This document shows positions 52,790-55,559 of a DNA stretch of 64,000 bases, in pieces. The stretch covers positions 124,001 to 188,000 of the forward strand of contig BPUI01000001.1 of assembly GCA_019973575.1 (NCBI GenBank). Direction: 5' to 3'. The notes beneath the pieces are model-generated. The model was not told the origin of the DNA and searched no databases. It was given only the letters and a program-made list of their open reading frames with translations. The stretch is from Gemmatimonadetes bacterium T265 (GTDB lineage: Bacteria > Gemmatimonadota > Gemmatimonadetes > Gemmatimonadales > Gemmatimonadaceae). The position numbers and the translations under genes are program-made. Positions within the stretch are counted from its first letter, which is position 1. Each line of letters begins with the position of its first letter.

Positions 52790-54148
52790 TCAGGCCGCGA
52801 GCCGCTCCGCGATCACGCCACGCACCCGGTCCGCGGCGACGCGGTCCTGCGCGAGCGTGTCGCGGTCGCGCACGGTGACCGTCCCGTCCTCGAGCGTCCG
52901 CCCGTCGACGGTCACGCAGAACGGCGTCCCGACCTCGTCCTGCCGCCGGTACCGGCGCCCGATCGCCCCCGAGTCGTCGTAGAACACCGGCACGTCGCGC
53001 CGCAGCTCGTCGGCGAGCCGGTGCGCGAACTCGGGCATCCCGTCCTTCTTCACGAGCGGGAAGACGCCCGCCTTGGTCGGCGCGAGCGCGGGGTGCAGCC
53101 CCAACACGACCCGCCCCTCGGCCTCGCCCGGGACGTCTTCTTCGCGGTACGCGTTCACGAGCGCCGCGAGCGTCACGCGGTCCGCGCCGACGCTCGTCTC
53201 GACCACGTACGGCACGTAGCGGCGGTTCGCGACCTGGTCGAAGTACTCGAGCTTCTTCCCCGAGTACTCCTGGTGTCGCGAGAGGTCGAAGTCGCCGCGG
53301 TGGTGCACGCCCTCGATCTCCTGGAAGCCGAGCGTGCCGCCGAAGTCGAACTGGACGTCGAACGCCGCGCGCGCGTAGTGCGCGAGCTCCTCGGGCGTGT
53401 GCCGGTGGAAGTGGAGCCGCCCCTCGCTCAGGCCTAACGACAGCATCCACTGCATGCGCTCCGCCTTCCAGTACTCGAACCACGCCATGTGGTCCGACTC
53501 CGGGTCGACGAAGAACTGCATCTCCATCTGCTCGAACTCGCGCGTCCGGAACGTGAAGTTCCCGGGGGTGATCTCGTTGCGGAACGCCTTCCCGATCTGC
53601 GCGATCCCGAAGGGGACCTTCTGCCGCGTGCTCTGCTGCACGTTGAGGAAGTTCACGTAGATCCCCTGCGCCGTCTCCGGGCGCAGGTAGACCACCGCCG
53701 CTGAATCCTCGAGCGGCCCCATGAACGTCTTGAACATGAGGTTGAACTGCCGCGGCGCGGTGAGCTCGCACTGCTCGAACTCGCCCGGGTGCCGGCTCGG
53801 CTTCCGCGGGCAGCGCGCGTCCTCGAGCTTGTCGGCGCGGAAGCGCCCCTTGCACGCCTTACAATCGACGAGCGGATCGACGAACCCCGCCACGTGCCCG
53901 CTCGCCTCCCACACGCGCGGGTGCATGAGGATCGCCGCGTCGAGCCCCTCGACGTCGTCGCGCATGCGGACCATGCTCTGCCACCAACGGTCCTTGACGT
54001 TCTTCTTCAGCTCGACGCCTAGCGGGCCGTAGTCCCAGACCGAGCCCGTCCCGCCGTAGATCTCGGAGGACTGGAAGATGAACCCGCGCCGCTTGCAGAG
54101 CGACACGAGCTTGTCCATGACGTCGGGCTGGGTGCTGGCGGGGGGCAT
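52790..54148 (-). CDS. glyS: Glycyl-tRNA synthetase (single-chain, alpha2 type)
   Basis: A 452-residue class II aminoacyl-tRNA synthetase. Residues near the N-terminus show [35 protein letters not shown], then [11 protein letters not shown], the motif 2 region [13 protein letters not shown]...[10 protein letters not shown] and [16 protein letters not shown], and C-terminal domain segments ([17 protein letters not shown]). A cysteine pair CKACKGRF is present. The ATG at 54146-54148 is chosen since it precedes the conserved core; an upstream GTG and an inner ATG at 54116-54118 are possible. The upstream leader holds the 14-bp repeat array. No T-box features were recognised. Confidence 0.94.
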
Positions 54149-54228: not shown

Positions 54229-54419
54229 GCTGTTGATCGCGCGCTGTTGATCGCGCGCTGTTGGTACGGCGCTGTTAATGCCGCGCTGTTGGTGGAACGC
54301 TGTTGATCCGGCGGCCCGCGCCGGCCGGCGGCAGCGCCGCCCTGACAGCGTTCCACCAACAGCGCCCTTCCAACAGCGCCCTTCCAACAGCGCCACACCA
54401 ACCGCGCGGCATCAACCGC
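54229..54419. repeat. Symmetric array of 14-bp units, six direct plus six inverted
   Basis: On the left arm GCTGTT (then usually GAT or GGT) recurs at 54229, 54243, 54257, 54271, 54285 and 54299, exactly 14 bp apart; on the right arm the inverted core AACAGC/AACCGC ends at 54349, 54363, 54377, 54391, 54405 and 54419, again exactly 14 bp apart. The array is symmetric about 54324, where the DNA is a GC-rich palindromic stretch (CCGGCCGG, 54321-54328). The fifth units (54285-54298 and 54350-54363) are exact inverted copies and, with flanks, make a perfect 21-bp stem (54283-54303 with 54345-54365) around a 41-bp loop. It lies between the YpdA-like gene and glyS, in no reading frame (14 is not a multiple of 3). 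Confidence 0.9.
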
Positions 54420-54446: not shown

Positions 54447-55559
54447 CTACCGCCCGCCCACCGCCGAACTCAGCTCGGGCATCGGCACGTAGGTCGGCAG
54501 CGACACCCCCGTCAGGTGCCGCGCGACGAGCGCCCCGTGGTCCCGCCCGTTCTCGATGAAGATCCGGTTCGCGTTGTACCCCGACGCGATCACGCCCGCG
54601 ATGTACACGCCCGGCACGCTCGTCTCCATCGTCGCCGGGTCGTGCGACGGGATCCCGGTCTCGGGGTCGAGCGGGACGCCGAGCTGCTGCAACAGGCCGC
54701 TGTTCGGCAGGAACCCGGTCGTGAGGTAGACCAGCTTCGCCGGCACCACGCGCTCCTCGACGGGCAGCCCCGCGGCGAGCGCGTGCGCCGGGTCGCCGCG
54801 CTCGCTCACCATCACGCGCACGGACTCGGGCTCGATCGCCGTCACCCGCGCGTTCCACACGCCGCGGATCTGCCCCTCGCGGAGGCGCGCGCTCACGTCG
54901 GGCAGCACCCACGGCTTGATGTTCGGATCGAGCCCCGGTCCGAAGTGCACCATCGTCACCCGCGCCGCGGCCCGGTACAGCTCGAGCGCGGCGTCGACCG
55001 CCGAGTTCCCGCCGCCGACGACGACGACCTCCTGCTGGAACCCGTAGTGCCCCTCGTCGAAGTAGTGCGACACGTTCGGCAGATCCTCGCCCGGCACGCC
55101 GAGCCGGCTCGGCGTGCCGAAGTACCCGGTCGCGACGACGACCGAGCCCGCGCGCCACGCGTGCTCCACCCCGGTCGCCGTGCGCGAGCGGACGGCGAAC
55201 CGCGCGTCGTCCTCGTCGGACGGGTCTAACGCCGCGACCGAGACGACCTCTTCGTACTGGCGCACGTCGAGCTCGCAGTAGGCGGTGACCGTGCGGTAGT
55301 AAGCGAGCGCGTCGCGGCGGGTCGGCTTCTCGCCCGCGATCGGGAACGGCACGCCGCCGATCGCGATGCGTTCGGCGGTCGAAAAGAAGTTCATGTACGG
55401 CGGGTACGACGCGACCCCGCTCACCAGGCAGCCCCGGTCGAGCACGACGGCGCGCAGCCCCGCGCGCCCGCAGGCGATCGCCGCCGCGAGGCCGCACGGC
55501 CCCGCGCCGACGATGAGAACGTCCACACTATCTCCGCCCACGTCATGTCCTCCCGACAC
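54447..55559 (-). CDS. ypdA: YpdA-family FAD/NAD(P)-dependent disulfide reductase
   Basis: A 370-residue flavoprotein of the thioredoxin-reductase-like group called YpdA (putative bacillithiol disulfide reductase). FAD-binding VLIVGAGPCGLAAAIACGRAG (residues 14-34), VVATGYFGTPSRLGVPGEDL and VVVVGGGNSAVDAALELYRA (NADPH-binding) are clear, and the C-terminal VYIAGVIASGYNANRIFIENGR segment is characteristic. A single Cys sits in VGAGPCG rather than a CxxC pair, as is typical for YpdA. No bacillithiol synthesis gene (BshA/B/C) is in the window. It follows purA by 19 bp. Confidence 0.87.
   Translation of the reverse strand: MSGGHDVGGDSVDVLIVGAGPCGLAAAIACGRAGLRAVVLDRGCLVSGVASYPPYMNFFSTAERIAIGGVPFPIAGEKPTRRDALAYYRTVTAYCELDVRQYEEVVSVAALDPSDEDDARFAVRSRTATGVEHAWRAGSVVVATGYFGTPSRLGVPGEDLPNVSHYFDEGHYGFQQEVVVVGGGNSAVDAALELYRAAARVTMVHFGPGLDPNIKPWVLPDVSARLREGQIRGVWNARVTAIEPESVRVMVSERGDPAHALAAGLPVEERVVPAKLVYLTTGFLPNSGLLQQLGVPLDPETGIPSHDPATMETSVPGVYIAGVIASGYNANRIFIENGRDHGALVARHLTGVSLPTYVPMPELSSAVGGR

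Follow-up and report, generated by a model that had tools for sequence, protein, structure and literature searches.

A dispersed 14-bp-pitch repeat with facing arms at gene 3' ends in the Gemmatimonadaceae: one plan, a different word in each genus

Introduction

Upstream of the glycyl-tRNA synthetase gene (glyS) of Gemmatimonadetes bacterium T265, the word GCTGTT recurs at a fixed spacing and is then faced by inverted copies of itself. A preliminary description of this locus suggested that the word is under selection and considered, among other possibilities, a transcription attenuator of glyS, a transposition signal and a protein-binding array. Does the array belong to glyS, or to something wider, and what in it is being kept? 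We addressed these questions starting from the window, i.e. the whole 64-kb stretch of DNA that was analysed, and extending the analysis to its genome (G000; 5.63 Mb in six contigs, of which C1 represents 2.99 Mb) and to other Gemmatimonadaceae.

Results

The array upstream of glyS

The array is intergenic. It takes up the space between two minus-strand genes, an oxidoreductase gene that stops at 54447 and glyS, which starts at 54148. Its parts and neighbours are the following.

52790..54148, minus strand: glyS, glycyl-tRNA synthetase, with class II core and anticodon-binding domains; start 80 bp from the array
54229..54312, plus strand: left arm, six 14-bp units (GCTGTTGATCGCGC twice, GCTGTTGGTACGGC, GCTGTTAATGCCGC, GCTGTTGGTGGAAC, GCTGTTGATCCGGC)
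54283..54303, plus strand: left side of a 21-bp perfect stem, pairing with 54345-54365; read from the sequence and from folds
54313..54343, no strand: centre between the arms, GGCCCGCGCCGGCCGGCGGCAGCGCCGCCCT
54344..54419, minus strand: right arm, six inverted 14-bp units in the register of the left arm
54344-54349, minus strand: innermost unit of the right arm, a GCTGTC variant
54345..54365, minus strand: right side of the 21-bp perfect stem; read from the sequence and from folds
54358, 54372 and 54386, minus strand: exact GCTGTT in the right arm (AACAGC as read)
54400 and 54414, minus strand: two outer GCGGTT variants of the right arm
54447..55526, minus strand: pyridine nucleotide-disulphide oxidoreductase (Pyr_redox_3) gene; stop codon 27 bp from the array

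The array had been described as six units facing six inverted ones. This is exact for the left arm, where all six GCTGTT words (at 54229, 54243, 54257, 54271, 54285 and 54299) follow a pitch of exactly 14 bp, whereas in the right arm, which keeps the register, three of the six are exact and three carry one substitution. Likewise, the 21-bp stem said to be perfect and central is indeed perfect but not central, its two sides being separated by 41 nt. The window contains seven matches to GCTGTTN8GCTGTT, every one within this array, compared with 0.00 in 100 dinucleotide shuffles. The 14-bp period and the inverted arms bear out the initial view that this is neither a coding repeat nor a CRISPR, which would have long direct repeats and unique 25-40-bp spacers.

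The predicted RNA folds of both strands are far more stable than those of shuffled sequences (-150.5 kcal/mol, z -9.5, and -161 kcal/mol, z -9.4, for the opposite strand), and a further predicted fold reached a z-score of -13.6. A scan for intrinsic terminators (a GC-rich stem followed by a T run) gave no match at the array, and none of the Rfam 15 families scored above its gathering score there. As the stop codon of the oxidoreductase gene lies only 27 bp away, the array can be viewed as a 3'-end element of that gene.

Dispersal in the T265 genome

The glyS-upstream array is one of about 22 in its genome, where GCTGTTN8GCTGTT yields 110 pairs and 65 triples (controls 0 for both). All triples, and all pairs among the matches listed, are carried by contig C1; these same triples and listed pairs place no array on contigs C2-C6. 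The arrays share a plan made of GCTGTTGRTNNNNC units, a G+C-rich centre and inverted units, only a few of them having a single clear arm. A centre similar to that of the glyS-upstream array, GGCCCGAGCCGGCCGGGGGCAGCGCC, is also present in other copies from the same genome (L038, L043, L046). Core identity is 0.99 for the innermost unit, 0.78 for the fifth and 0.54 for the sixth, and reaches background beyond. Outside the arrays, the word is not enriched (48 observed, 45 expected).

On C1, the asymmetric G+C-rich centre points the same way in most copies (L038, L039, L043, L046, L064) and is reversed in L057; a tie between this orientation and gene direction or replication arm was sought and not found. 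One Mutator-family transposase gene (L049:2690-3964) has its end 77 bp away from an array with a single arm.

The same plan with other words

A search for the unit in the genome and in related species, as advised in the preliminary description, was thus positive within the genome and negative in relatives: neither 58 relatives nor 178 family genomes contain arrays of the GCTGTT word, apart from simple one-directional or 7-bp repeats, and a GTDB scan for it returned simple tandem repeats only. Absence from close relatives, together with the lack of a transcript effect, had been put forward as the sign of a chance or neutral repeat; such absence is not decisive here, because relatives display the same architecture with a different word and at different loci.

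A single chance match exposed in genome G020 an inverted 14-bp array built on the word GCGTCGA (190 triples; controls 0). A pattern not tied to a particular word, GGCGC at 14-bp intervals, then picked up G016 and G107; since its controls were not zero and it also returned scattered simple repeats, only strong cases were used. Genome G016, taken as Gemmatirosa kalamazoonensis KBS708 (PMC3974934; contigs of 5,311,527, 1,106,233, 1,040,503 and 20,952 bp), contains about 48 arrays following the plan of the GCTGTT arrays with the word GGCGCTG, typically with four units per arm (8 x 14 = 112 bp); CGGCGCTGN6 gives 171 pairs and 79 triples (controls 0). These arrays are mostly chromosomal, the two megaplasmids carrying four of them. 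A length of exactly 112 bp, with two four-unit arms around a CGCG centre, is found in 19 elements, and among 22 elements with an intact centre core conservation is 1.00, 0.92, 0.91 and 0.85 for units 1 to 4 and 0.41 for unit 5. Abundant 14-bp arrays with the word GGCGCGAGC occur in G107; there and in parts of G020 the homogenised arrays are longer and in many cases stop at a contig break, and facing arms can be read at L031 and L225. Hence, the Gemmatimonadaceae harbour a dispersed element whose plan is retained while its word is different in each genus.

In some G020 copies only, the arms end at a central T-tailed hairpin resembling a terminator (L136, L141). The contigs break at these hairpins, so that assemblies probably under-count such elements. 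Two other kinds of repeats were encountered: intergenic 7-bp tandem repeats (GGCTATT/GGCTGTT) in a relative, G006 (L032-L036), a separate class sharing GCTGTT by chance or distant kinship, and a one-directional 14-bp tandem repeat, CAACAGCGTGTGCT, devoid of a facing arm in G086 (L155/L116), another Gemmatimonadetes genome. Candidate words of G033 and G118, which came from control columns, were rejected as perfect 7-bp or 14-bp simple repeats.

Placement at gene ends

The arrays are located at the 3' ends of genes and are depleted from promoter (divergent) regions. A gene 3' end adjoins 46 of the 48 Gemmatirosa arrays; 19 of the 48 lie between convergent genes (baseline 13/119, p 3e-7) and only 2 between divergent ones (baseline 33/119, p 3e-5). 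The same trend, though weaker, is visible in G000, with 3/24 arrays in divergent (p 0.035) and 6/24 in convergent gaps (p 0.039). Gene starts are approximate in these comparisons, the genes having been called with a home-made codon-usage caller. Gemmatirosa stop codons usually fall 3-13 bp off the array or within it, and 27 of 61 occupy phase 6 of the 14-bp unit and 9 of 61 phase 3, which indicates that the TGA is part of the repeat unit; the unit holds the stop codon in over half of the genes next to an array. Adjacent stops in G000 are mostly 14-48 bp away.

The flanking genes are of many kinds (argG, rhomboid, permease, GGDEF, MFS and others). An array of 15 units separates argG from argH in G000, and consequently an array can be intercistronic within a co-directional pair; in Gemmatirosa argG and argH overlap and the array follows argH. 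About one array position (L041/L232) seems common to the two genomes, which means that positions turn over. With only tens of genes per genome bearing an array, the element is not a general terminator.

What is conserved within the arrays

Each unit consists of a conserved core of 7-8 bp and a variable spacer of 6-7 bp. Neighbouring units have spacers that resemble each other no more than do spacers of different elements (p 0.07-0.79), and unit duplication was accordingly rejected as the source of the arrays in G000 and Gemmatirosa. Facing spacers within an element match as random pairs do, the innermost pair being less alike. Core conservation may in part reflect ascertainment; yet the Gemmatirosa arm that was unused for detection retains 86% core identity, compared with 38% in controls. 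The persistence of core and pitch next to near-random spacers points to old elements whose word and pitch are under selection rather than to recent copying, in agreement with the selection on the word proposed at the outset.

The fold depends on the spacers in a particular manner. Shuffling them within units weakened it in 22 of 22 elements, by a mean of 11.5 kcal/mol, while redrawing them from the common vocabulary had little effect (14/22 elements, 4.2 kcal/mol). Tests for co-evolution of the arms (swapped arms, facing spacers, core pairs) were negative or weak: own arms folded slightly better than swapped ones (p 0.14 and 0.035), and compensation in core pairs is rare, with 21 one-sided variants and 1 two-sided in Gemmatirosa, and 13 and 3, respectively, in G000. 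Taken together, the shuffling, redrawing and swapping results indicate that the hairpin is supported by the common word and spacer vocabulary and not by pair-by-pair co-evolution.

Mobility and chromosome position

No match to a Y1 transposase (PF01797, RAYT) was detected in G000, G016, G020 and G107, while 30 of 179 family genomes have one. A RAYT was therefore rejected as the mobiliser in these four array-rich genomes. No record with arrays was retrieved from phage and plasmid collections, and no target-site duplication was seen by eye. The idea of a transposition signal found no backing in the transposase search or in these collections.

More arrays than expected lie in the dnaA-proximal half of the chromosome (17/22 on C1 of G000 and 24/33 on C2 of G016; pooled p 2e-4), assuming that dnaA marks the origin and that C1 is a circular chromosome; dnaA was used since noise in the GC skew of C1 prevented the origin from being located that way. 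Of the results, this bias alone bears on the possible replication signal proposed at the outset. G000 encodes two 358-aa DnaA-domain proteins with identical scores (C1:2142084 and C4:5853), apparently a duplicated gene.

Discussion

A model for the gene-end arrays

We tentatively favour, at slightly short of an even chance, a model in which the array is a transcribed gene-end hairpin that functions like a REP element. The array would be transcribed as the 3' end or as an intercistronic part of the upstream mRNA, and the transcript would fold into one long hairpin through pairing between the cores of opposite arms. Like the REP elements of enterobacteria, such a hairpin would arrest 3'-to-5' exonucleases and curb read-through, from either side where genes converge. 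A common word combined with a weakly matching spacer vocabulary would enable the arms to pair without requiring a perfect, and unstable, DNA palindrome, and the imperfect pairing of spacers would also avoid offering RNase III a perfect duplex. The poor match of facing spacers, the small gain of own over swapped arms and the rarity of compensated core changes count against the model. Pairing by itself, moreover, needs no identical word in each unit, which argues against a hairpin-only view; the common word may be read by a protein as well.

This last point leads to an alternative that we consider rather unlikely but worth weighing, namely that the array acts as double-stranded DNA, with a sequence-specific protein bound at the cores and the facing arms forming a dyad. 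Three 14-bp units would span 42 bp, or four helical turns, and the bound protein would block or stop transcription at gene ends or organise the chromosome, the word drifting between genera along with the protein. The conservation of core and pitch among adjacent and facing spacers as different as random ones, the use of one word throughout all units and copies, the existence of one-armed arrays (L037, L243), the bias toward dnaA in two genomes and the lack of over-representation of the word outside arrays are all consistent with it. On the other hand, no candidate protein has been identified, DNA binding alone predicts neither the tight placement at 3' ends nor a pairing-friendly spacer vocabulary, and the origin bias may merely reflect gene content. 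A broader version, on which we place a little less weight, is a family-wide system wherein a protein of fast-changing specificity reads a 7-8-bp word at 14-bp pitch in dyad arrays at gene ends; if so, each genus would control its transcript ends or its chromosome organisation with its own word-protein pair.

About as doubtful, if not slightly more so, is a dispersed repeat that is selfish or neutral, either MITE-like or generated by slippage and template switching, and that builds up at gene ends, where insertions are tolerated. Array positions are mostly unshared between G000 and Gemmatirosa, gene ends are the usual tolerant sites, and the G020 and G107 arrays appear homogenised. Nevertheless, such a repeat fits poorly with cores that stay intact beside near-random spacers and with adjacent units no more alike than units across elements, as well as with the negative results for a Y1 transposase, for phage or plasmid copies and for target-site duplications. 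As for an attenuator or riboregulator specific to glyS, the foldability of an array located 80 bp upstream of the glyS start is in its favour, but arrays follow some 20 unrelated genes, no Rfam family matches and the stop of the upstream gene lies nearer to the array than glyS does; we therefore regard this reading as very improbable.

Comparison with known systems

REP-type elements are extragenic, occupy mostly convergent or co-directional gaps and usually lie within about 20 bp of the 3' end of an ORF (PMC3733652), and REP hairpins stabilise RNA 3' ends (PMC13289151). The 14-bp-pitch elements resemble REP, REPIN and BIME elements in being dispersed extragenic palindromes at gene 3' ends that are rare between divergent genes. 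REPs, however, are single hairpins of 20-40 bp with a GTAG or CGTC tag, the GTAG families being associated with RAYT transposases, whereas the present elements measure 100-230 bp and contain 8-15 tandem units in two facing arms with a genus-specific word. Neither tag is present at the ends of aligned array copies. Lacking the tag, the size and the transposase, the element is not classed as a REP; at most it works like one.

ERIC and other long palindromic extragenic elements are comparable in overall length and imperfect palindromy, but ERIC is one conserved sequence without an internal 14-bp period or random spacers. Paired uptake sequences (DUS/USS) are inverted copies of a species-specific word that lie downstream of genes and act as terminators. 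The arrays are similar in presenting inverted copies of a genus-specific word downstream of genes; the uptake-sequence reading was rejected on the grounds that the word is not over-represented outside arrays (the 48 occurrences against 45 expected given above). Finally, STRRs are intergenic heptanucleotide repeats such as the TAACTGA arrays of Beggiatoaceae (PMC4679880). They share with our arrays the short intergenic direct repeats and the species-specific words, and 14 equals 2 x 7. Yet STRRs are mostly one-directional, unlike the present arrays, which have facing arms, are located at gene ends and conserve only the first half of the 14-bp unit.

No earlier description of such an element was found in the literature searched (open-access full text), and the 14-bp-pitch, facing-arm element of gene ends is apparently undescribed. 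Gemmatirosa kalamazoonensis is cultured and its genome is complete, making the main questions directly testable. What appears to be new is the plan, in which the pitch is fixed at 14 bp, the arms face each other, the spacers are random and the word varies with the genus. It offers a comparison series on how bacteria of 74% G+C protect or terminate their transcripts without T-tract terminators, and on how repeat families swap their word yet keep their architecture.
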